Source: Allotamlana fucoidanivorans (GTDB lineage Bacteria; Bacteroidota; Bacteroidia; Flavobacteriales; Flavobacteriaceae). Taken from it: a stretch of DNA of 64,000 nt. The notes beneath the pieces are model-generated. The model did no database searches. It saw only the letters and a program-made list of their open reading frames with translations, and was not told where the DNA came from. The stretch is taken from the NCBI RefSeq assembly GCF_006265225.1, contig NZ_VDCS01000008.1:124001-188000 (forward strand), given 5' to 3'. Below are positions 18,310 to 30,052 of the stretch, in pieces; the first letter of the stretch is position 1; every line of letters begins with the position of its first letter. The position numbers were made by a program, and so were the translations under genes.

Positions 18310-19497
18310 ATGAAGCAAAAATATTTTGTTGCTATTTGCTTGTTTAACTTTTTTGTAGCTGCCCTAATGGGGTTACTGCTTAGGTATACCTATTTGGGTG
18401 ATATTCATTTTAATTATCGTTTTCTAACCCATGCGCACTCACATGTAGCTATGTTAGGATGGGTGTATTTGTTGCTTTATAGTCTTTTTGTTCATCATTT
18501 TATTCCCGAAAAACGACCAGTTTACTACAGACTTTTTTGGTTGACGCAATTAGCGGTTATGGGTATGATGTTAAGTTTTCCTTTTCAAGGTTACGCCAGC
18601 ATATCTATAGCATTTTCAACACTTCACATATTTTGTAGTTACTATTTTTCATATTTATTTTTTAAGAATGCCCAGTTTGGATCTGTAATTACTAAATACT
18701 TAACTAGAACATCCTTGGTATTTATGCTTATATCAACTATTGGAGTCTGGTGCTTAGGGCCTGCGGTTACTATGTTGGGTAATAGGTCTGCATTTTATCA
18801 AATAGCGATACAGTTTTTTCTGCATTTTCAGTTTAATGGATGGTTTATCATTGCTGTTTTGACCGTTTTGTTTCATGTGTTAGAAGTTCAAGATGTGAAA
18901 TTATTTAGACCTTTTTTGGGGCTACTTGTGCTTTCAACTATTTTAAGCTTAGCATTGCCCGTGCACTGGTTTTTGCCTCATCCATTCCTTATAAAAGCTA
19001 ATATAGTTGCTGTTTTGTTACAACTCATTATGTTGTTTTTGTTTTTAAAAATCATCAAACCTTATCAAAAAGCGCTATTAGCATCCAACTCCAAAACGGC
19101 ACTTTACGTGTTTGGGTTTTCGGTGTTTTGTTTTCTGATAAAAATAGGGATGCAGTTAACAGTGTTGAGTCCAAAATTTGCAGAGGAGGTGTTCCAGCAT
19201 AGAAATTTTGTTATTGGATTTATTCATTTAACCATGCTTGGCGTTATTTCAGGGTTTTTGTTGTTTTTTATTATTAAAAATCAATGGGTAGCTAGCACAG
19301 CATTGTTAAAAGGCGGTGTTTTATCTTTTGTATTAGGATTTGTGTTAACAGAGATAATTTTGCTCATTCAGGGGTATAAATATTTTACAGGAACAGGCAT
19401 TATGGAAAACTACTATGTAGCATTGTTTCTATTCAGTATGTTAATCCCGATTGGTGTTTTGGTGTTTTTAATTCAAGTGTTAAGGAATAATCACTGA
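18310..19497 (+). CDS. Polytopic membrane protein, heme-copper-oxidase-like
   Basis: A 395-residue integral membrane protein with about 12 predicted helices. Histidines recur in a pattern reminiscent of heme-copper oxidase subunit I or NnrS: THAHSHVAMLGW (His41, 43, 45), FLHFQFNGW (His172) and GFIHLTMLGVISGF (His306). This suggests a heme or metal centre in the membrane, but the full oxidase ligand set is not seen. Its position beside RIC and an NsrR-like gene suggests a role in NO handling. The 3' end overlaps the convergent TonB receptor gene by 18 bp. Identity is tentative. Confidence 0.6.
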   Translation: MKQKYFVAICLFNFFVAALMGLLLRYTYLGDIHFNYRFLTHAHSHVAMLGWVYLLLYSLFVHHFIPEKRPVYYRLFWLTQLAVMGMMLSFPFQGYASISIAFSTLHIFCSYYFSYLFFKNAQFGSVITKYLTRTSLVFMLISTIGVWCLGPAVTMLGNRSAFYQIAIQFFLHFQFNGWFIIAVLTVLFHVLEVQDVKLFRPFLGLLVLSTILSLALPVHWFLPHPFLIKANIVAVLLQLIMLFLFLKIIKPYQKALLASNSKTALYVFGFSVFCFLIKIGMQLTVLSPKFAEEVFQHRNFVIGFIHLTMLGVISGFLLFFIIKNQWVASTALLKGGVLSFVLGFVLTEIILLIQGYKYFTGTGIMENYYVALFLFSMLIPIGVLVFLIQVLRNNH

Positions 19498-21477
19498 CAT
19501 ATTTACATAAAAATTACGACCTTGCCTCGGAATATTATTCCAATCAGCAAACGTTGAGTAATGCGTATCTAAAATATTTTCTATCCCGTATTTGAACACT
19601 ATTTTGTTGTGTTTTACATATAGTATATTACCAAAGTTTAGGTGTAATACAGCGTAAGCTGGTGTTTCGTTTTCCCCGTAAAATGGACTGTATTTGCTTT
19701 GATTGCCATTACCCTCAAGTTGAATGGCTCCGTTAAACTTAGGGGTACCATAGTTAACTTCGGCTAAATATGAAAGAGGCTTTATTAAAGGTAAATTATT
19801 GTGGTTGCTTCCGCGTCCGTAATTATATCCTATGGTGCTGTTAAACGAAAAAGCCTTAGATATAGAAATATGAGCGTTGAGGTACACATTAAAAATAGAT
19901 GCATGGTTTAATGCTTGGTACACCCTAACGCCATTAGCGCCTATGGTCATTGGGCTAATATCTGGATCAATTTCACCAATAATATAGTCTGAAATGTGAA
20001 AGAAAGAGGATTCAAGCCCTAGCTTTATAGTTTTAAATTGGTATCCAGATTTAATATTAACTTCAATAGCTTTTTCGTTTTTTAAGTGCGGATTTCCTAT
20101 GTAATCATATTTGTCAAAACTATTAAATAGAAAGAAACCATAACCTTCACTAACAGACGGGGCACGTTCACCATAACCTAACCCCAACGTTGTATTAAAC
20201 TGATTTTTTTGAAAGGTGTAATCGGTTGATATACTCGTTAAAAATCGGGTTTGTGTGTCTTCCATATCTGGGTAAAAAATTTGAAGACTATGGAGTCCAA
20301 CATCATTGGCTACTTTGTTAAGGTGATATCCTAATCTTGTATGGAAAGAAAGACTTTCAAAAGTGTTTAATTGCCAGTGATCTTTAGCGTATAACCCCGA
20401 GTAAAATGTTCTTACATCTGGCCAAGTGTACATAAACATGTCGGGTTCGTTGGGGCTATTTGAAAACATGGTCATTTCTGCTAGTGACCGATTGTGATAG
20501 CCGTTAAGATTCATTAAAAAATGATGCTTGTTGGCATTAATTTTCATTTTACTATAAAACCCATAAGTGTCACTCCAGCCAGGCATATCCATTCGTATGG
20601 GGACATCTGGGCGGTTGCTGTCATCCATGATGTGTGTAATAGAGTTGAAGTAAAATTTGGTTTCTAAAGATTTTATAAAGGTAGATTGGTTTTTGTAGTG
20701 ATATGAAGCAGATGCAATAAAAGCTTCGGCTAATGATACATCCATAGGAAGCGCAGGATAGCCCACGTCAGTTGCCTTGTCATAAATGACATTGGTTTCA
20801 ATTGCCTGCTGATTTGTGAGTTTGTAGCCGCCCTTAAATGAGAGGTTGTATTTTTTAAATTGAGAATAGGCTACTTCCTCATTACCACCAGCTTTATAAT
20901 TATCAGATGTTCTATAAATACCATCAGTAGTGAGGTAAAGTTTGTCTCCAGAATATTCAAAATCAAGCCCCGCCATTTTATAGTTTCCGTTGGTTTCATA
21001 CCCCAAATCTGCACTCGTTTTTAGTCCACTTTCATTAAAATGGGATGATGCTATTTGTAAATCTATACCACCACCAACACAATGACCATTTTCAGTACCT
21101 TCTTGCCCAGAATTAACAGTGACTTGTTCTAGGTTTGATACATCTACATATGAGGTAATAGGATCCATTTTGTCTGTACAGGCACCAAATATTTGCATAC
21201 CATCTATCGTCACATTGAGTCGGTCACTAATCATATTATTTATAGCAGGTTCCCAAGCATAGTTTCCTCGTTTTATCATGGTCACTCGGTTAGATTTTTC
21301 AAGATAAGTATCAACACTTGAAAGTGTTTTTTCTTGTCTGTAGTTACTGAGCTTGCGTTCAGCTACCACAATGATTTTTTCAAGTTCGGTGGTGTCTCTT
21401 TTAGTAACTACATTGTTTTGAGCAAACAGGGTATGTCCAAAAAGTACACTGGCAACTACAATTATGAGGTGTTTCAT
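19480..21477 (-). CDS. NosA/OprC-type TonB-dependent copper receptor
   Basis: A 665-residue outer-membrane receptor with a signal peptide ending at FAQ (residue 20), a plug domain (about 45-150) and a 22-strand-type barrel ending in an aromatic/hydrophobic C terminus. The plug contains GMQIFGACTDKMDP (Cys100, Met104), the Cys/Met copper site region of OprC and of NosA from Pseudomonas stutzeri, which imports copper for N2O reductase. It is the last gene of the minus-strand nos-linked array, behind a Met/His-rich lipoprotein. It has no N-terminal carboxypeptidase-like domain, unlike SusC proteins. Confidence 0.85.
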   Translation of the reverse strand: MKHLIIVVASVLFGHTLFAQNNVVTKRDTTELEKIIVVAERKLSNYRQEKTLSSVDTYLEKSNRVTMIKRGNYAWEPAINNMISDRLNVTIDGMQIFGACTDKMDPITSYVDVSNLEQVTVNSGQEGTENGHCVGGGIDLQIASSHFNESGLKTSADLGYETNGNYKMAGLDFEYSGDKLYLTTDGIYRTSDNYKAGGNEEVAYSQFKKYNLSFKGGYKLTNQQAIETNVIYDKATDVGYPALPMDVSLAEAFIASASYHYKNQSTFIKSLETKFYFNSITHIMDDSNRPDVPIRMDMPGWSDTYGFYSKMKINANKHHFLMNLNGYHNRSLAEMTMFSNSPNEPDMFMYTWPDVRTFYSGLYAKDHWQLNTFESLSFHTRLGYHLNKVANDVGLHSLQIFYPDMEDTQTRFLTSISTDYTFQKNQFNTTLGLGYGERAPSVSEGYGFFLFNSFDKYDYIGNPHLKNEKAIEVNIKSGYQFKTIKLGLESSFFHISDYIIGEIDPDISPMTIGANGVRVYQALNHASIFNVYLNAHISISKAFSFNSTIGYNYGRGSNHNNLPLIKPLSYLAEVNYGTPKFNGAIQLEGNGNQSKYSPFYGENETPAYAVLHLNFGNILYVKHNKIVFKYGIENILDTHYSTFADWNNIPRQGRNFYVNMSVIIP

Positions 21478-21558: not shown

Positions 21559-22407
21559 TTAAAATTCCAACTCTAAATACAGTGAACTTTTTTCGTTGCT
21601 TTCAGTCACATCTTCGCCTTTTAAAACCGTGTCAGAGGTATTTAAAAGTTTAAGATTAAGAACCCAATAGCCTGTCATGGTTAATGATAAATCACCATGA
21701 TACATCGTATCTGAGCTGTTAAAGCTTAAATCGGTATTATTTGGTGAGCTATGATTGCCCATTCCTGGCATTCTCGGATCTAACATAATTGTATAATTTT
21801 CAACCACAGGGAAAGACATCATACTCTCCATTTTATAAAGTCCTACGGTGATATCATTGATTCCAATACTAGGGTCAAGAGGCTCTATAAGTGCAATAAT
21901 ATATCGTGTGTCATCACTGCCCATAAAACTGGTTACGTTTTGTTTGGCAGACTGCATAACATTAATCGTTTCAGTGGCGCTGTACTCCATACCATTAATG
22001 CTGTAGTTAAGTGTAAGTGACCAGCCAGAACCATCGGTGTTTGTCATTTGATAAACAACGGAACCTGTATATAACGTTTTTTTGTTTGAAACTTTTGAAA
22101 TCGTAGAGTGGGGTGATGAATGCAGCATGCTTGGCATTTGCATCATAGGTGTCCAAGCTATATTAGCATTTTCAAAATAACTTTGCTCAGTATTGTTTTT
22201 AATTCGGATAAAGACCTCATTGTAACCAGTTTTAAATACACCAGATTTACTGTATAATTCTATGGTGTGCTCGTTGGTTGTGATATCCTGAATTTTTTTC
22301 AATTCTGCAATTTCATCAATGGTTTGTGGGGTATCGTCGTCATCTGTTGAACAGGACATAGATAATATGACGATACAAATAATTGGCAATATATATTTTA
22401 GTTTCAT
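21559..22407 (-). CDS. Met/His-rich lipoprotein, putative copper carrier
   Basis: A 282-residue lipoprotein (lipobox SMSC, Cys19, followed by an Asp-rich stretch). It has two beta-rich halves resembling FixH/YtkA-like domains, each with a Met/His cluster: PMMQMPSMLHSSPH at about residues 88-101 and MLDPRMPGMGNHSS at about 207-220. Such clusters bind copper in periplasmic carriers. Directly upstream of the NosA/OprC-like receptor on the same strand. I infer copper transfer from the receptor toward NosL/NosZ; no exact family is recognised. Confidence 0.65.
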   Translation of the reverse strand: MKLKYILPIICIVILSMSCSTDDDDTPQTIDEIAELKKIQDITTNEHTIELYSKSGVFKTGYNEVFIRIKNNTEQSYFENANIAWTPMMQMPSMLHSSPHSTISKVSNKKTLYTGSVVYQMTNTDGSGWSLTLNYSINGMEYSATETINVMQSAKQNVTSFMGSDDTRYIIALIEPLDPSIGINDITVGLYKMESMMSFPVVENYTIMLDPRMPGMGNHSSPNNTDLSFNSSDTMYHGDLSLTMTGYWVLNLKLLNTSDTVLKGEDVTESNEKSSLYLELEF

Positions 22408-22518
22408 TTTTATTTTTTTAAAAAAGGTATAGGTATATAGCTTAGTTATGTCGTTCTAAAAAAGAAGACATAAAGCGTCTGAAGCCGAAGTAGTGGCTTC
22501 TATGAGTTTTAATAAAAA

Positions 22519-22917
22519 TTAACTAAAATTTGGTGGCGGTGTTTCTACCTTTAAAAAGGCTTTTGTGATGCGGATAGATGTATATAATTGGGGTTTTTTA
22601 GGGGTCAAAGTTGTATTAAAAACGTTTTTAAAAACATTGTGGTAAGACACTACATAAAACGTATCTAAAGCAGTACGTTTATTGTTTTGAGCTGGTGCTT
22701 CACTATTTGTGTCTGCATTATTTTTTACCAATTGTTTTTTAAGGTGACATTTACCATTACAACCTTTTTGATCTTCTTTTTGAACACATAAGGTTTTAGC
22801 GATAAAATCTTGATTAATTATAAAACCACCAACAATAGCTAAGGTGTTTATATTGTTGGCCAACAATATAAACACAAGGCACAATGCTGTTGTTTTATGA
22901 ATCAAGGTTTTAATCAC
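22519..22917 (-). CDS. Small Cys-rich protein with CxGKC motif
   Basis: A 132-residue protein with an N-terminal hydrophobic segment (about residues 8-32) and a conserved-looking segment holding Cys44, Cys53 and Cys57 (GCNGKCHLKKQL). The only reasonable start is GTG at 22917, as no Met occurs in the next 80 codons. Similar small proteins occur in Bacteroidota before metal receptor genes; a copper-binding role is inferred from the motif and from its place between nosY and the copper-related genes. The C-terminal half is low complexity and unrecognised. Confidence 0.6.
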   Translation of the reverse strand: MIKTLIHKTTALCLVFILLANNINTLAIVGGFIINQDFIAKTLCVQKEDQKGCNGKCHLKKQLVKNNADTNSEAPAQNNKRTALDTFYVVSYHNVFKNVFNTTLTPKKPQLYTSIRITKAFLKVETPPPNFS

Positions 22918-22977: not shown

Positions 22978-23760
22978 TTAAAAATCTTTCTTTTTCGACT
23001 TGGTTACTATTCTTAAAATGGGTAATATAATCCAAATTACTAAAGTCGTGAAAGAAATAATCAGACCAAAGTTCGTCCCAAAAAATTTTTTAAAAATGGC
23101 CCCAGTGTACCCCAACAGGGCAGAGATATCTAATTTTAATAGAATCAATGTTCTTGACAAGTCAATGGGATTTAGCATGGTACCTACTAAAGATAATTTG
23201 TCTAAAGGATAGTCTTCAAAGAGAATAAGCGACATTAAAAAAAGACCATCGTAAATAATAGCTAAAAACAGCCATAATAAAATGGCAAACCCGAACCCTT
23301 TTATTTTATTTTCGTAAGATAAAGCAATGTTAAAGGCCAAGGCAGTAAAAATAAAAGTTAAAAAAGTACCTGTTATAAGCAACAGTGAAAAATCCCATAT
23401 GGCAGAAGATTTAAATAAACCATAGAAAATAAATGGAATACCAAGCCCCAAAATTAAACTCATAGATAAAGAAATAGCTACCCCAAAATACTGTCCTAAA
23501 AAAATAGAGGATCGTTTGAGTGGTTGAGCAAGTAAAAGTTCGGTAAATTCTTTGGAATTATAATAGTACATCACACCAAAAATAGTTCCTATTAAAGGCA
23601 CCAAAACAATAATCACATTCATCAAGGTAATCACTGCTTTTGATAAGTTGTTATTTAGAAACAATAGCACCATTCCAAGGAGCAGGTAAAATGCAAAATA
23701 TACATAGCTCCAACGGCTACGCATTAAATCATAAAAACTATATTTTAATATTTTAAGCAT
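22978..23760 (-). CDS. nosY: NosY, permease of the NosDFY ABC complex
   Basis: A 260-residue ABC-2-type membrane subunit with six helices. With NosF (ATPase) and NosD it forms the exporter complex needed to assemble the CuZ centre of N2O reductase. It overlaps nosF by 8 bp, showing translational coupling. Length fits the family; the order nosL-nosD-nosF-nosY supports the assignment, since sequence alone would only say ABC-2 permease. Confidence 0.9.
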   Translation of the reverse strand: MLKILKYSFYDLMRSRWSYVYFAFYLLLGMVLLFLNNNLSKAVITLMNVIIVLVPLIGTIFGVMYYYNSKEFTELLLAQPLKRSSIFLGQYFGVAISLSMSLILGLGIPFIFYGLFKSSAIWDFSLLLITGTFLTFIFTALAFNIALSYENKIKGFGFAILLWLFLAIIYDGLFLMSLILFEDYPLDKLSLVGTMLNPIDLSRTLILLKLDISALLGYTGAIFKKFFGTNFGLIISFTTLVIWIILPILRIVTKSKKKDF

Positions 23761-24460
23761 GGTTTTCTTGTAAAATGGAGGCTATGGCATGTTCAAAATC
23801 AGGTTGATTCGTTTTTGTTTTTAAATCGCTAATACTGCCTTTAAAATAAATTTGTCCTTCTAATAGAAATACAATCTCATCTGAAACTTCTTCTACAAAA
23901 CTCATAATATGCGAGGTAATTAAAATGGTTTTTCCTTTTTGCTTTTCTATTTGAATTAAATCTTTCAATCTTATCAAAGCAATAGGGTCTAAACCCGTGG
24001 TGGGTTCATCTAAAATCACTAAGGGGCTGTTAAACATAAAGGTTAGCACAAGGTTTACTTTTTGTTTGGTGCCACCGGAAAGGTTGCCCAGTTTTTTATC
24101 TAAAAAAGGGGTTAATTTGAAGCGTTCAATTAAAGCTTTGTCAAGCTCGGTTTTGCCTCGCAAATCTTTAATCATTTTAATAAGTTCTTTAACTTTTAAG
24201 TTGTTTGGAAAATTGGCTATCTGTGGTAAATAATCAATTTGATGTCTGTATTTTGACTGATGTTTCGTGCTTTCACCAAATACAGCGATAGAGCCTTTAT
24301 TAGGAATAACCATCCCTAAAATAGATTTTATCAGGGTTGTTTTACCAGATCCATTGGGGCCAAGAATTGCGAAAATTCCCCCATTACCAATTGTTAAATC
24401 CAGACCTTTTAAAACGGTGTTTTTTCCGAAGGATTTATGTAAGTTTTGAATGGTTACCAT
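23753..24460 (-). CDS. nosF: NosF, ATPase of the NosDFY ABC complex
   Basis: A 235-residue ABC ATPase: Walker A GPNGSGKT at residues 34-41, signature LSGGTKQK, Walker B VILDEPTTGLDP and the switch His in TSHIMS. It energises NosY/NosD for maturation of the NosZ copper centre. Overlaps nosD by 7 bp and nosY by 8 bp. Cytoplasmic face of the inner membrane. Confidence 0.93.
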   Translation of the reverse strand: MVTIQNLHKSFGKNTVLKGLDLTIGNGGIFAILGPNGSGKTTLIKSILGMVIPNKGSIAVFGESTKHQSKYRHQIDYLPQIANFPNNLKVKELIKMIKDLRGKTELDKALIERFKLTPFLDKKLGNLSGGTKQKVNLVLTFMFNSPLVILDEPTTGLDPIALIRLKDLIQIEKQKGKTILITSHIMSFVEEVSDEIVFLLEGQIYFKGSISDLKTKTNQPDFEHAIASILQENHA

Positions 24461-25692
24461 ACTATTTGTTTGGTTAATGGGTTATTGTCTAGTAAATTAT
24501 TAGGTGTAAAAACAGGAGATACTTTTTCAGAAAAATCTATGACATCAATAAACAGGCTACGTAGTAAAATGATGGTTTCTGGTGTTCTGTTTACAATGTA
24601 CGAAAACAGTTTTACTGGCCTGTATGGTACATCGCCAATGCCATCTTTATTTAAATCGTAGCCTGTGTAATTACTCCAATAGTTTTTGTCGAACGTATTA
24701 TCATTAACCTTGCTGTTGTAAGATATATCAAAAGAATTGTACAGAAAGTTGTTTTCTATAAAGTGATTGCCGTAACAAGCACCACGCACCTTAATGGCCC
24801 AGCCATTACTTTCAAAATTGTTATGTAAGTAGTTTATTCTATTTGACCCTTCAATATTAATTCCAATAGTATTTTCTTTAAAAGTGTTACCCTTTATTTC
24901 AGCATCATTAATTTCTTTTAAAAGCATGCCGTAAGAGGCGGTGCCCCAGTTTTCCTGAAAGGTATTGTTTAGCATTTTTATTTTTTTTGAAAACATAACA
25001 GCTACGCCAGCACCATTGTTTTCAAAAGTATTATCTTGATACACATCGTTATTTGAAAACATAAAGTGTAGGCCATATCTTAAATTTTCAGTGCTAACAT
25101 TGTTTTTTATGAGGCAGTCATTAGAAAATTCTAAGTAAATACCATCCCGAACATGTTCTACGTGATTATTTTCAATTTCAATATGATTACTGTACCAAAG
25201 TTGAATACCATTTCCAGAATTGTATTCTTCAACGGCATTACCAATAATCTTGTTGTGATATACACGCCCGTAATTTGATTTTTCAAGATAAATTCCGAAA
25301 AATAATTTTTCAAGTACGAGATTTTGAATTATGAAATGGTTGCTGCGTTTTACTCTTATGGCAGCATAGTCTTCCGTATAACTGGTGCCCACATTGATGA
25401 TGAATAGGCCATCAACAGTAACACTGTCGGCTATTATGGTAATAACTTCTCCTTTAAGTTCCCCATCAATAAGAGGGTAGTCTTTACCCAGAATAGTAAG
25501 GGGTTTGTCTATAGATATATTATGTTCTTTATAGGTCCCTTTTTTTAGAATAATGGTATCAAAATCTTTAGCTTGCAAAATGGCTTGTTGCAACGAAGAA
25601 ATAGGGCAGGTTTCACAAACCTCAATGTTTTGAGCATAATTAGCAAAGGTCATAATGCATATGACAAATAAAAAAAGAAATATTCTTGTCAT
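24454..25692 (-). CDS. nosD: NosD, periplasmic copper-site assembly protein
   Basis: A 412-residue periplasmic protein with a signal peptide (cleavage near FANYAQ, residue 21) and a right-handed parallel beta-helix of carbohydrate-binding/CASH repeats (about residues 60-360), visible as regularly spaced N/G-rich turns such as NSGNGIQLWYSN. NosD works with NosF, NosY and NosL to insert copper and sulfide into N2O reductase. Four bp from nosL and overlapping nosF. Length is normal. Confidence 0.93.
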   Translation of the reverse strand: MTRIFLFLFVICIMTFANYAQNIEVCETCPISSLQQAILQAKDFDTIILKKGTYKEHNISIDKPLTILGKDYPLIDGELKGEVITIIADSVTVDGLFIINVGTSYTEDYAAIRVKRSNHFIIQNLVLEKLFFGIYLEKSNYGRVYHNKIIGNAVEEYNSGNGIQLWYSNHIEIENNHVEHVRDGIYLEFSNDCLIKNNVSTENLRYGLHFMFSNNDVYQDNTFENNGAGVAVMFSKKIKMLNNTFQENWGTASYGMLLKEINDAEIKGNTFKENTIGINIEGSNRINYLHNNFESNGWAIKVRGACYGNHFIENNFLYNSFDISYNSKVNDNTFDKNYWSNYTGYDLNKDGIGDVPYRPVKLFSYIVNRTPETIILLRSLFIDVIDFSEKVSPVFTPNNLLDNNPLTKQIVW

Positions 25693-25696
25693 TAAC

Positions 25697-26134
25697 TTAG
25701 TTGCTAAAGTGTTTTAGTAAGGTGTCCCAAGAATAGGTTTCGCCTCCTTTTTCTAGTTGTAATTTTTCAGCATCAGCTTGCGTTTTAAACGCAGACAAAA
25801 AAGCACCCATGGGGCTAGGAATGTTTTTACTGATTAAAAAGGTAGCTTTTGTGGCATCAATCAGTGCTTCGGGTTCTAAGTAATCATTGGATAAGTATAG
25901 TTGAATTGCAGCAGTGTCAAACTCATCCATGAAATTAATCATGCATTCTGTAGCGTCAAATTTATAGACTTTTCCTTTTTTAGTCACTATCTCTGCGGCA
26001 TGTACTTTATCAACAATAGTCATTTTACAAAAATGACACCCATCGGTTCCATAGGCTATAGGCTGAGGTGCAACCTGACACCCAAAGTATAAGGGCAGTA
26101 TGAGTATTGTTAAGGTCTTTTTTAGTGTTTTCAT
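25697..26134 (-). CDS. nosL: NosL, copper chaperone lipoprotein
   Basis: A 145-residue lipoprotein (lipobox YFGC, Cys19) with the NosL Cu(I) motif CHFCKM (Cys33, Cys36, Met38) and later Met residues in TECMINFMDE. NosL delivers Cu(I) for the CuZ site of NosZ in the periplasm. Located between the 197-residue membrane protein gene and nosD, as in other Bacteroidota nos clusters. Confidence 0.95.
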   Translation of the reverse strand: MKTLKKTLTILILPLYFGCQVAPQPIAYGTDGCHFCKMTIVDKVHAAEIVTKKGKVYKFDATECMINFMDEFDTAAIQLYLSNDYLEPEALIDATKATFLISKNIPSPMGAFLSAFKTQADAEKLQLEKGGETYSWDTLLKHFSN

Positions 26135-26159
26135 TTTTTTAGTGTTTTAGTTTCTCAAA

Positions 26160-26753
26160 TCAAGCCGTAGAGTTTTTGGCTTTTTTGCCAATAAGGTGCG
26201 CTACAAACGAAAAAGCGATGCCTAATCCTAAAAATAAAGCACCTAGTTGTGGGTAAGAGTGTGCTCTAAAATTTAAAATATCTTTGCTTCCAAAAAGAGG
26301 TGGTTGAAACCCCATGACTGAACCGTCTGGGTTTGTAAATTTCATGATGGCTTTTGGGTCAAGGTCATGACCGTAATCATGTTCCCATAAATAGAAGTCA
26401 TATAGCCCAGCAGAACACATGATAATCATTAAAATAAACCATCCTAAAAACCATTTGTAATTTCCTTTAAAAGCAATCAATAGACCTATTACCGTAGAAG
26501 CAATAATGGCAATTGGGAAAATTTTGAATTCAGGAATGGCCTCAGGTATATATTTCATACCTACGTAGTGATTCATGAGATTAATGTTTTTAATGTCATG
26601 CGGATGAACGTCTGAAAAATCATTGATATGGATGTACATGCCTAAAGGTGTTGGGTATTGAGGCGCTTCAAGCGTTATTTTCCAAAGCGGGAAAAGAAAT
26701 AGCCCTAAGGGTAATATGGATGCTACTAGCATTACTATGTTTGACCTTTTCAT
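26160..26753 (-). CDS. Membrane protein of the clade II nos cluster
   Basis: A 197-residue protein with four predicted helices (about 7-27, 80-98, 103-123, 168-190) and a His-containing periplasmic stretch between helices 1 and 2 (HINDFSDVHPHD) and after helix 3 (WEHDYGHD). Genes like this stand between nosZ and nosL in Bacteroidota. The histidines could handle copper or contact the cytochrome, but no function is established. Separated from nosZ by two hairpins, so it may have its own promoter. Confidence 0.75.
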   Translation of the reverse strand: MKRSNIVMLVASILPLGLFLFPLWKITLEAPQYPTPLGMYIHINDFSDVHPHDIKNINLMNHYVGMKYIPEAIPEFKIFPIAIIASTVIGLLIAFKGNYKWFLGWFILMIIMCSAGLYDFYLWEHDYGHDLDPKAIMKFTNPDGSVMGFQPPLFGSKDILNFRAHSYPQLGALFLGLGIAFSFVAHLIGKKAKNSTA

Positions 26754-26795
26754 ATGTTCTAGAAGTCTTATTTTTAAAGTATAGTGTTTTAAAAA

Positions 26796-26864
26796 AGAAA
26801 GGCGAGAGCGAAAACGAGCTCTCGCCTGAATAAGAGAATAAACACTAAAACAAAATTCTCTTAT
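26796..26864 (-). terminator. Two hairpins downstream of nosZ
   Basis: Proximal to nosZ: 10-bp perfect stem 26830-26839 with 26855-26864. Next: 10-bp GC-rich perfect stem AGGCGAGAGC (26800-26809) with 26818-26827, loop of 8, followed on the minus strand by a T-rich tract (TTCTTTTTT). The second has all features of an intrinsic terminator and lies inside the nos array. Confidence 0.75.
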
Positions 26865-26874
26865 AAGCTATCAA

Positions 26875-28845
26875 CTATTCGATATCTTCTCCTAACGACC
26901 ATTTTAATGGTGTGCTAGCGTTTGCTGATGACACACGTACATAACCCTGCATTTCTTGATGTAGTGCAGAACAGAAATCGGTACAATAGAAAGGCCAAAC
27001 CCCAACTTGTTTTGGTTCCCAAAGGAAGGTTTCTGTTTGTCCAGGCATGATGAGTAGTTCAGAGGTATTGGCACCTATTATACTCACGCCGTGAGGTACG
27101 TCATAATCTTGTTCTAAGTTTGTAATGTGGAAATAGACTTTGTCACCAACTTTAATACCTTCAATATTGTCTGGAGAGAAATGGGAGCGAATGGTGGTCA
27201 TATAAACATGTACCACATCACCTTCACGAACTACTTTAGTGTCGGCTTCATTTTTGCAGGCATAAGGGTGTTTATTGTCTTCTAACTTAAATAGTTTTTT
27301 AGATCTCGGTTTAATTAAATCGGCAGGGCATCCAGCAGCATAATGTGGTTCCCCAACTGTTGGAAAATCTAAAAGAAGTTCCATTTTTTCACCTGAGATG
27401 TCATATAACTGAGCGGATTGTGTTACCTCTGGTCCTGTTGGTAAATAACGGTCTTTAGTAATCTTATTCATTGCTACTACGTATTTACCCCAAGGTTTTT
27501 GGGAGTTTCCTCCAGGAATCATTAAGTGCCCCACAGAGTAATAACAAGGCTGTCTATCTACAACTTCCCAGGTGCCAAGTTTCCATTTTACCACTTCCGA
27601 AGATATAAAGAAGGTAGTGTATGCATTTCCTTTACCATCAAATTCTGTGTGCAATGGACCTAACCCGGGTTGCTCAACAACACCTGCCAAAACATCTTCA
27701 AAATTTAAAATAGGAATACCATAAGCGTCACCAGCTACTTTGTTATCTTCGATGGCTTTTAGCATTTTAGTAAAAGAATGTACCGTTAAGTTGGCAGAAA
27801 GTTTACCATTACCAACAATATATTCACCTGATGGGTCTACATCGCAACCGTGAGGCGATTTAGGGGTTGGTAATAAATACACAGCGCCAGGCACATCGGA
27901 AGGGTTAACTACCAAAACTTCTTTTTTCATGGTAGATGTTGCAGTATGTGTGTCTTCATCATAAACATTATGCGCATAGTTGGCTGGCATCATTTTGCCA
28001 CCACCATTGTTTACATACTCTTCAATTTTTTTCCAGTTTATAGCCGCTATAAAATCTTTGTCATTTTGAGAGGCATTAACCTCAAGAAGTGTGCTTGCTT
28101 CTTCTGAGTTATAAGTTGAGAAGAAAAACCAACCATGCGAAGCACCACGACCAGGGTGCGCTAAGTCATAATCAAATCCAGGCATAATTACTTGGAATTT
28201 GATATCCATATGACCATGCTCAGGATCTACGGAAATGAAGGATAGGGCACCTTTAAAATTACCTTTGTAATCTTTAATAGGCATGTCTTTCTGAGGAATC
28301 GGAATAGAGAAACGTGTTCCTGCAACTACGTATTCTGTATTTTCTGTAACAAATGATGAACTATGGTTGCCTGCACTATTGGGTACTTCAATAATTTCGG
28401 TTGTTTCAAAAGTAGACAAGTCAATTTTTGCAATACGAGGCGTATTATTACCATTAATGAACACCCAGCGCCCGTCAATGACCCCATTGGTTTGTGAAAT
28501 GTCAGGGTGATGCGAATCATCCCATGGTACAAAACCGTGAGATGTGTTTAGCATGGGCTTGGTCTCTTCGTTATAGCCATACGCCTTTTCCGCATCCTGT
28601 GAGAATACAGGGATAACTTTAAATAAACGGCCTGATGGCAACCCGTAAACAGATAATTGACCGCTAAAACCTCCGGAAATAAATGCATAGAATTCGTCAT
28701 GTTCTCCTGGAGCCACATAGACTTTTTCGGCTACGTTACCAGCAAGCGCTCCAGACTTTCCTCCAGATTTACTTGAATTGTTGCAACTGGTGAATGCTAA
28801 AAGAGCACTTAAAATAACCATTGCAGATTTGAATATATTTTTCAT
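26875..28845 (-). CDS. nosZ: Nitrous oxide reductase, clade II (Sec-type lipoprotein)
   Basis: Reduces N2O to N2 in the periplasm. The 656-residue protein has a Sec signal with lipobox TSC (Cys21), not a twin-arginine signal, which marks clade II. The beta-propeller (about 60-530) carries the CuZ histidines, visible in HHPD, GNHSS, GASHGW, SPHGCD, GPLHTE and GEPHYA, and the C-terminal cupredoxin domain has the CuA set C-x3-C-x3-H-x2-M (Cys621, Cys625, His629, Met632) plus His in VPHGVS. Third gene after cytochrome c and a FAS1 lipoprotein, followed by hairpins and then the nosL-D-F-Y maturation genes. Confidence 0.97.
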   Translation of the reverse strand: MKNIFKSAMVILSALLAFTSCNNSSKSGGKSGALAGNVAEKVYVAPGEHDEFYAFISGGFSGQLSVYGLPSGRLFKVIPVFSQDAEKAYGYNEETKPMLNTSHGFVPWDDSHHPDISQTNGVIDGRWVFINGNNTPRIAKIDLSTFETTEIIEVPNSAGNHSSSFVTENTEYVVAGTRFSIPIPQKDMPIKDYKGNFKGALSFISVDPEHGHMDIKFQVIMPGFDYDLAHPGRGASHGWFFFSTYNSEEASTLLEVNASQNDKDFIAAINWKKIEEYVNNGGGKMMPANYAHNVYDEDTHTATSTMKKEVLVVNPSDVPGAVYLLPTPKSPHGCDVDPSGEYIVGNGKLSANLTVHSFTKMLKAIEDNKVAGDAYGIPILNFEDVLAGVVEQPGLGPLHTEFDGKGNAYTTFFISSEVVKWKLGTWEVVDRQPCYYSVGHLMIPGGNSQKPWGKYVVAMNKITKDRYLPTGPEVTQSAQLYDISGEKMELLLDFPTVGEPHYAAGCPADLIKPRSKKLFKLEDNKHPYACKNEADTKVVREGDVVHVYMTTIRSHFSPDNIEGIKVGDKVYFHITNLEQDYDVPHGVSIIGANTSELLIMPGQTETFLWEPKQVGVWPFYCTDFCSALHQEMQGYVRVSSANASTPLKWSLGEDIE

Positions 28846-28862
28846 TGTATTTATAAATTAGT

Positions 28863-29438
28863 TTAATTAGATGCTTTCGATGGTGGTAAAAGTACTTTAT
28901 CAATAACATGAACAATGCCGTTTCCAGCTTTAACGCTGGCAATAATATTAGCCCCGCCAATAACAGGTTTACCATCAACAACTTCTACTTGTACGTACTG
29001 ATTGTTGGCCTGCCCTAATTTTTTAAGTTTAGTAAGAATAGAGGTGCTTAAATTTCCAGGAGTTACATGGTATTTTAGGATGTTAGCTAAGGTTTCTTTA
29101 TTCTCTGGTTTTACAAGGTTTTCAACAGTGCCTTCAGGTAAGGCGGCAAATGCGGCATCTGTTGGAGCAAAAACAGTAAGAGGTCCTACGTTGACTAAGG
29201 CGTTTTCTACTTGTGCAGCCTGGACTGCGGCAACTAAAGTTTTATGGTCGGGTGAGTTAATAGCTATTTGTAAGCAGTTTGGAGTAGCCTCGTCATCTTG
29301 AATAAAAGCTTGCCCTGTTTTTTGTTTAGGTGCATTGGCTTCAGTTGTAGTGGTTTGCACCTCCTTGGTTTCATTTTTACAGGAGTAGCATACAACTGCA
29401 AAGACAAAAAGAAGGACTAATGGTTTAAAGGTTTTCAT
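28863..29438 (-). CDS. FAS1 (fasciclin) domain lipoprotein in the nos operon
   Basis: A 191-residue lipoprotein (lipobox CYSC, Cys20). After a Thr-rich linker, one fasciclin domain spans about residues 55-187, with the FAS1 motifs LTVFAPTDAAFAAL and NGIVHVIDKVLLPP. It lies 17 bp from nosZ and 19 bp from the cytochrome gene, so it is part of one transcript. FAS1 domains mediate adhesion or protein contacts; here it may dock cytochrome c and lipid-anchored NosZ. That role is inference. Confidence 0.85.
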   Translation of the reverse strand: MKTFKPLVLLFVFAVVCYSCKNETKEVQTTTTEANAPKQKTGQAFIQDDEATPNCLQIAINSPDHKTLVAAVQAAQVENALVNVGPLTVFAPTDAAFAALPEGTVENLVKPENKETLANILKYHVTPGNLSTSILTKLKKLGQANNQYVQVEVVDGKPVIGGANIIASVKAGNGIVHVIDKVLLPPSKASN

Positions 29439-29457
29439 ATTTAGTGGTGTTAGTTGA

Positions 29458-29961
29458 TTATTTTAGCGTTCTAAAATATTCTAAAATCGCTCTAGCATCT
29501 TCTTCCGATAAATTTTGATTAGCCATTGGAGAACCGTTAAATTCTATTAATAAAGCTTTAGCAAGCGGGTCTTTCTGAACCATTTCATCAGGATTTAAAA
29601 TCATGTTCATAACCCATTCAGGGCTTCTGCGATCTAAAATGTTTTTGGGTGCAGGACCAATGAATTTTTTATCAGGTCTGTGACAAGCCGTACACATATT
29701 TTTAAAAACATCGGCACCGTGATTGGCCATGTCTTGGTTGACTTCGGCATCAAGTGTAATGGATGTTATGGGGCCTATCCCTTTATTGTTAAGGTCAACA
29801 GTTTTTGAGGCAGGAAGTGTCTCTGCTTTTGTTGTATTGGTTGTTTCAGTAACAGTTTTCTTCTCATAAGAGAACCCTGCTTTCTTTTTTTCTTCTTTGC
29901 CGCCGCAGCTAATCAGAAGAGCAATTAATAAAGTAGATAGGATATTACGTGTAGTTTTCAT
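29458..29961 (-). CDS. Monohaem c-type cytochrome lipoprotein, likely donor to NosZ
   Basis: A 167-residue lipoprotein (lipobox LISC, Cys19) with a linker and a class I cytochrome c domain: haem motif CTACH at 90-94 and a likely axial Met146 in GSPMANQNL. It is the first gene of the nos operon and is probably the electron donor to NosZ at the periplasmic face. ATG at 29961 is chosen because the longer reading frame would need a TTG. Confidence 0.9.
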   Translation of the reverse strand: MKTTRNILSTLLIALLISCGGKEEKKKAGFSYEKKTVTETTNTTKAETLPASKTVDLNNKGIGPITSITLDAEVNQDMANHGADVFKNMCTACHRPDKKFIGPAPKNILDRRSPEWVMNMILNPDEMVQKDPLAKALLIEFNGSPMANQNLSEEDARAILEYFRTLK

Positions 29962-29980
29962 AAAAAAGTATTTAATCAAA

Positions 29981-30052
29981 CAAATTTAGGATTCCTATAC
30001 GTGAAAAAACATGATAAAAATCATATTTAAGACAAAATTGTCTTAATTAAGA
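29981..30052 (-). promoter_or_regulatory. nos operon promoter with FNR-type and Rrf2-type operators
   Basis: On the minus strand: -7 box TAAATTTG (29981-29988), no -33 TTTG. ATGATAAAAATCAT at 30011-30024 is an inverted repeat of the FNR type (TTGAT-N4-ATCAA) centred about 40 bp before the predicted start, a class II activator position. TTAAGACA (30027-30034) and TGTCTTAA (30039-30046) form a second palindrome; with the following bases to 30050 it matches the Rrf2 promoter operator at 21 of 24 positions. TCTTAATTAAGA (30041-30052) is itself palindromic. Confidence 0.65.

Follow-up and report, generated by a model that had tools for sequence, protein, structure and literature searches.

Three adjacent genes behind the nitrous oxide reductase (nos) operon of Allotamlana fucoidanivorans, here designated SML, YTK, and REC, likely constitute a copper-acquisition operon for N2O reductase, and probably for other respiratory cuproenzymes, with SML acting as a copper-sensing leader protein. 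In the window (i.e., the whole 64,000-nucleotide stretch of DNA that was analyzed), the minus-strand gene order proceeds from the nos operon (cytc, fasciclin, nosZ, orf197, nosL, nosD, nosF, and nosY; 22978..29979) through nosY (22978-23760) to SML (22519..22917), YTK (21559..22407), and REC (19480..21477). The nosZ gene (26875-28845, minus strand) is of the Sec/clade II type (TIGR04246, 937 bits). A sequence-only reading of this DNA had singled out two ORFs behind nosY, a Met/His-rich lipoprotein (YTK) and a small protein with GCNGKC (SML), and both were recovered in place with their motifs on the minus strand. Elsewhere at the locus, orf197 (26160-26753), located between nosZ and nosL, is present in nearly all nos loci examined and has no match in Pfam or NCBIfam; the segment 16979-19497, next to the module in this genome as well as in many relatives, encodes an Rrf2-like regulator and a Ric-like ORF of 243 aa (both names assigned by eye) together with a membrane protein of 395 aa that matches no family.

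REC (665 aa) is an OprC-type TonB-dependent receptor that aligns with Pseudomonas aeruginosa OprC (PDB 6fok) at E=1e-16; in this alignment, GACTDKMD of REC faces GACPNRMD of OprC, and HIMD is common to both. Both half-sites, CxxxM (C100, M104; 21166..21180, minus strand) and HxM (H282, M284; 20626..20634, minus strand), are accordingly in register, which bears out the earlier description of a receptor with the OprC copper motif following the two ORFs. The site occurs in 27/27 receptors aligned, near and far (as ACxDxM and HxM), and its pattern in 76/76 named receptors. REC shares the CxxxM-HxM site with OprC and NosA, but it is distant from OprC (131 bits against TIGR01778, under the equivalog cut-off of 472) and is linked to clade II nos genes and a YtkA lipoprotein. 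In P. stutzeri, expression of NosA is anaerobic and the receptor has been linked to the copper of N2O reductase, though a later nosA knockout in another P. stutzeri strain showed no NosZ defect (PMC8610252). Two receptor genes are unusual in themselves: that of Aquaticitalea lipolytica (L060 / L101) has an internal stop codon, and that at L067:8759-10855 encodes an N-terminal CNGSC stretch resembling the SML motif.

YTK is a 282-aa lipoprotein (lipobox Cys19) with two YtkA/CrdA-like domains and Met/His clusters MMQMPSMLHSSPH and DPRMPGMGNHSSPNN; domain 1 bears the motif MMQMPSMLH (22120..22146, minus strand), and the domain 2 motif lies at 21736..21780 on the same strand. By eye, the lipobox Cys and DPRMP..M.NHSSPNN are invariant or nearly so among 33 aligned members, and the domain 1 Met cluster is mostly lost in the MbnP-type group. 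The closest named relatives belong to Algibacter, Hyunsoonleella, and Flavivirga. Against the YtkA family (PF13115), the window protein scores 20.7 bits where the cut-off is 25.9, and all 33 aligned members match at E<=0.1 (best 4.8e-12). The nearest solved fold to the structure model (pLDDT 91.3) is that of Helicobacter pylori CrdA (9ll4/9ll2, one entry with silver ions), which superimposes on model residues 37-150 with Z 13.2 over 103 residues at rmsd 2.3. CrdA alone stands out, given that the next unrelated match reaches Z 8.3 and that most other top Foldseek matches are to immunoglobulin-like folds at poor rmsd; the corresponding profile match is weak (E=0.003) and covers the MPGM stretch. 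Taken together, the motifs, the CrdA fold, and the YtkA kinship make copper binding by YTK likely. As NosZ carries a CuA center, help with that center is one possible role for the lipoprotein. YtkA domains aid copper-center assembly in Bacillus subtilis (PMC13344008). The domain fold is the same in YtkA/CtaK, CrdA, and YTK, but YTK differs from the others in having two tandem domains on one lipoprotein and a receptor as its partner.

The distribution of the three genes ties YTK and REC to each other and to nos. In a panel of 149 genomes (one per genus), searched at thresholds that we set ourselves (SML, E<=0.01; YTK, E<=0.001; REC, E<=1e-60), matches were found in 86, 35, and 35 genomes, respectively, so the three are not chance ORFs. 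YTK and REC occupy an identical set of 35 genomes, always as neighbors, and all 35 also have an SML match adjacent to the two, in the order SML-YTK-REC or SML-REC-YTK. Co-occurrence with clade II nosZ, the check suggested alongside the original proposal, was run on this panel: nosZ is present in 29/35 module genomes vs 44/114 others (Fisher p=5e-6, uncorrected for phylogeny). The module sits beside nos in 15/35 genomes, in 11 cases behind nosY (some with one or two intervening genes) and in four in front of the cytc-nosZ operon. Among 80 named loci, which are the best 80 of 592 matches and hence enriched in close relatives, nosZ is found on 66 and the module directly behind nosY in 63. In a YTK profile search of 326 Bacteroidota genomes, 41 contained YTK, 108 nosZ, and 25 both (p=1.3e-4, kinship ignored). 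YTK and REC are therefore not genes that occur mostly without nos or copper genes. At 30 of the best 80 of 592 named loci, a further ORF of 140-168 aa, designated c9 and lipoprotein-like by eye (e.g., L054:7554-7979), lies between nosY and YTK; the single member searched matches nothing in Pfam or NCBIfam. A single genome (G128:C10:24902-29000) carries two adjacent NosZ-type ORFs of 811 and 771 aa.

The module might instead take up copper for general use (cbb3/aa3 oxidases and other enzymes) and simply co-travel with nos in a microaerobic gene island, a reading that we consider a serious contender although we lean against it. It gains from the absence of nosZ in 6/35 module genomes; from G071, G093, and G115, which keep the module at the same site but lack nosZ to nosY (through loss, or because these genes were never present); from cbb3 genes on 24 of the best 80 of 592 named loci; and from the seven of 35 modules that sit with an MbnP-like and an MbnH-like gene (one pair family-tested), four of whose genomes have nosZ elsewhere. 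The repeated linkage to nos in differing arrangements (after nosY, between nosL and nosD, and ahead of or divergent from the cytc-nosZ operon) weighs in the opposite direction. Surroundings were examined in 20 of the 41 YTK-matching genomes of the phylum set (nine with nosZ nearby and eleven others), and nos genes were found at 11 of these 20 distant loci. At L194 and L195, nosL, YTK-REC, and nosD follow one another in a single orientation, and at L198 YTK-REC lies directly behind nosL on a contig that ends after REC; all three loci belong to one other Bacteroidota family. At L210, nosL is followed by SML-YTK-REC with nosF-nosY further on, and at the remaining distant nos-linked loci the module is divergent from, or downstream of, nos genes. 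The strongest evidence that YTK and REC supply copper to clade II NosZ is this recurrence of nos linkage in differing arrangements, and in respect of these two proteins the proposed copper route to nos is supported by gene content and order. Its description as a dedicated route agrees with the nos linkage but is at odds with the modules lacking nosZ and with those accompanied by MbnP/MbnH-type genes.

Promoter signals provide a second tie to nos. The pattern TGAYN4RTCA, which we take to be a CRP/FNR-type box, was scored within 150 nt upstream of each gene and precedes 77/110 SML and 59/64 cytc genes, compared with 0/100 YTK, 1/101 REC, 0/70 nosY, 0/71 nosZ, and 40/740 other ORFs; on nos-carrying named loci, the exact box stands before 58/65 leaders. 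TAnnTTTG, presumably a Bacteroidota promoter element, is located upstream of 64/110 SML and 36/64 cytc genes and of 1/100 YTK and 0/101 REC genes. The placement of both elements implies that SML heads its own operon in most relatives, under a box of the type that also precedes nos; the absence of this box from the MbnP-type modules argues further against general uptake. In the window, the palindromic pattern TGATAAAAATCA (30012..30023, plus strand) lies upstream of cytc, the first gene of the nos operon. The window SML has no exact CRP/FNR-type box (the best match contains two mismatches), so its own promoter is only putative and read-through from nosY is possible. With five boxes in the whole window against 3.8 expected by chance, only the placement of the box matters. 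For the gene-by-gene counts of the CRP/FNR-type box and of TAnnTTTG, as well as the duplex (other than pooled), register, hairpin, masking, and footprint-reach counts below, 12 named loci apparently duplicating panel genomes (11 with leaders) were excluded, whereby the leader set of 115 rows was reduced to 104 distinct leaders. The L063/L147 leader and the YTK genes of L067 and L076 were absent from the ORF calls and were detected by genome searches.

SML itself (132 aa, GTG start) has an N-terminal helix, CNGKC (codons at 22747..22761, minus strand), a putative copper-sensing Cx3C motif, and PPP near its C-terminus (codons at 22531..22539, minus strand), a putative ribosome arrest site separated by three residues from the stop. 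The structure prediction (pLDDT 61.8, pTM 0.28) yields a single N-terminal helix at residues 2-43, in what appears to be an export-type N-terminus, and no fold beyond it. In 39 aligned leaders, C43, C52, and C56 (the Cx3C pair and one further Cys) are invariant, as are the Gly and the Lys of CNGKC. CxGxC is present in 104/104 distinct leaders and 19/19 of a wider set; PP lies 1-8 residues from the end in 104/104, with three residues after it in 76/104. The spacing from CxGxC to PP is 69-70 residues in 85/104 leaders and always within 64-71, such that the stretch between CNGKC and PPP varies in sequence at a nearly fixed length. In the first 41 loci, PP occurs in the last 14 aa of 43/43 leaders vs 12/738 other ORFs. 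Two family assignments were considered and not adopted: no genome of the 149 exceeds the 23.7-bit cut-off for DUF2946 (PF11162), which is not listed for any of the 39 leaders at E<=1, and DUF6769 (PF20558) matches 2/39 members weakly and 0/149 genomes over its cut-off, with 14 weak genome matches of which one (G125) overlaps a weak SML match.

In the sequence-only reading, SML and YTK were both periplasmic copper carriers conveying copper from REC to NosL, which we now judge improbable. The conserved Cx3C and further Cys, the export-type N-terminus, and the position beside copper-linked genes at the loci examined are what a carrier would display, and two of nine distant leaders keep CxGxC without a terminal PP. 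A carrier, however, leaves the near-fixed spacer length, the terminal PP of 104/104 distinct leaders, and the stop-start pairing described below unexplained, and no SML fold is predicted past one helix. The GCNGKC protein is thus probably not a delivery protein; its PP end, fixed spacing, lack of fold, position at the operon head, and stop-start pairing lead us to read it as a leader, and the proposed copper route loses it as a carrier.

Leaders of this type extend beyond the module. All 18 leaders found outside it have CxGxC, a terminal PP, and a spacing of 64-71 residues; downstream of them lie TonB receptors, followed in six cases by a PepSY-type gene, or, in three cases, an MbnP/MbnH-type pair and, in six, a Met/His-rich outer-membrane protein. 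Family labels come from tests for ten of these neighbors (TonB receptor, PepSY_TM, MbnP, di-haem peroxidase, and Phenol_MetA_deg), and the remainder were assigned by resemblance. At the distant loci, a leader was found in 9/20, with a terminal PP in 7/9; the leaders at L206 and L210 have PP 17-18 residues from the end. L194, L195, and L198, where YTK-REC lies inside the nos operon, yielded no leader, so the YTK-REC module can exist without one.

The known systems nearest to SML are CutF and CruR. Like SML, CutF of Rhodobacter capsulatus is small and exported, combines CxxxC with a proline motif at its C-terminus, is encoded directly upstream of copper genes, and has an RNA that shields the next start; the CutF-like set includes many Bacteroidota members with TonB neighbors, some members adjoining nitrous-oxide reductase or NosR genes (PMC9973294). 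CutF switches a multicopper oxidase on with copper, whereas SML precedes an uptake operon, so its switch should run in the opposite sense. CruR of Bordetella pertussis (DUF2946) heads a copper-receptor operon, is poorly structured, and has a Cys pair at a fixed distance from a PP three residues before its end (PMC9426467), all as in SML, and some SML relatives precede a TonB receptor and PepSY_TM in the CruR operon order. SML differs from CruR, as far as the latter is described there, in having Cx3C rather than CXXC, PPP/xPP rather than RAPP, and a spacing of mostly 69-70 rather than 45, and it falls outside DUF2946 by HMM. With its export-type N-terminus, Cys motif, terminal PP, and location directly upstream of copper genes, SML has the sequence traits of the leader class, and by sequence and analogy it fits a CutF/CruR-type copper-sensing leader. 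A 2025 survey reports RAPP/RGPP leaders of copper-factor genes in various lineages, Bacteroidota not being among them, and a TonB-related leader class throughout Gram-negatives (PMC12992588); SML-type leaders with other PP endings may fill the place of RAPP/RGPP leaders in Bacteroidota.

The stop region of the leader pairs with the start of the gene that follows, and this pairing covaries between species. In the window, the SML end and stop codon (22511..22529, minus strand) are predicted to pair with the YTK translation start region (22395..22414, minus strand) over 18 base pairs; the fold has an energy of -31.3 kcal/mol (z -7.15). When each leader end was compared with its own downstream start and with swapped partners from other species, own duplexes were stronger at 86 SML/YTK junctions (-8.39 vs -6.30 kcal/mol, sd 0.21; 0/1000 permutations) and at 11 SML/REC junctions (-10.5 vs -7.5; 1/1000). 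Restricting the set to 31 dissimilar representatives preserves the effect (z -7.1), which recurs at 26 further leader junctions, 25 of them outside the SML-YTK-REC module (z -4.6). Pooled, 67 leader junctions give z -11.3 vs z -0.3 for a sample of 250 drawn from the 329 other co-directional junctions with gaps >=35 nt, relatedness among species being only partly removed. No own-partner effect was seen at the control junctions YTK/REC, nosZ/orf197, fasc/nosZ, orf197/nosL, and tolC/rndMFP, and that between the leader end and a distal REC start is slight and non-significant (117/1000). The short controls cytc/fasc, nosL/nosD, and c5/tolC (median gaps 3-10 nt) do exhibit it, which we discount because their two segments share letters.

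In a fixed 13-pair register, 822/1118 cells are paired vs 781.5 in permutations, although not every species keeps to this register. By our own footprint estimate, 57/58 strong duplexes reach leader bases under a ribosome at PP. A 17-nt footprint mask opens the start by >0.2 in only 27/75 SML-YTK junctions and produces no average opening in 11 SML-REC junctions. Conserved local hairpins in the SML-YTK gap were also considered and set aside, their strength being no greater than in control gaps and RNAalifold having predicted no pairs from a plain MAFFT alignment of 39 such gaps. The YTK-REC and nosZ-orf197 gaps, for their part, form folds much more stable than those of shuffled sequences (mean z -5.2 and -4.2).

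The computations show which genes are linked, the motifs and their spacing, the promoter signals of relatives, and the covariation of the stop-start pairing; from these we infer a course of copper binding, arrest, switching, and hand-over. By homology, REC would carry copper ions across the outer membrane via its OprC-type CxxxM-HxM site, and YTK would receive or buffer them in the periplasm for hand-over to NosL/NosZ. When copper is scarce, a ribosome would pause at the terminal PPP of SML and cover the SML stop region; the YTK start codon would then stay unpaired, and YTK-REC would be made. Binding of copper by the nascent CNGKC would end the pause, whereupon the stop region would pair with the YTK start and turn the uptake genes off; this direction is suggested by the CruR analogy and the logic of an uptake operon. 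Control could alternatively be transcriptional, with copper relieving the arrest and Rho terminating between SML and YTK. CruR acts in this manner in B. pertussis (PMC9426467), and SML-YTK gaps of ~100 nt are common; nevertheless, stop-start covariation at leader junctions, and none at others with gaps >=35 nt, makes Rho-dependent control rather unlikely. There is about an even chance that the leaders with CxGxC, a spacer of 64-71 residues, and a terminal PP form a Bacteroidota family whose stop-start switch gates import, one branch of which meters copper for NosZ. The leaders of this N2O-reductase branch are mostly under the promoter box common to the nos operon.

Much of this has precedent: OprC/NosA receptors, YtkA domains, and CutF/CruR leaders are already known, as is a CutF-like set that includes Bacteroidota. 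The suggestion that such a route is undescribed holds for the unit as a whole, as neither the SML-YTK-REC unit, nor a leader with nos, nor the clade II nos link, nor the covarying stop-start pairing was found in searches of the open-licence PMC literature. It holds less well for the receptor, since NosA (PMC8610252) precedes it and an OprC-like receptor with CxxxM-HxM has already been named in Bizionia argentinensis, near NosL in the gene table (PMC11213822).

N2O, a strong greenhouse gas, has its known biological sink in N2O reductase, an enzyme that requires copper, and the literature searched gave no account of how copper passes the outer membrane to clade II NosZ. A receptor-lipoprotein pair with a copper-gated leader would make this route directly testable, and SML-YTK-REC may thereby link copper supply to greenhouse-gas removal.
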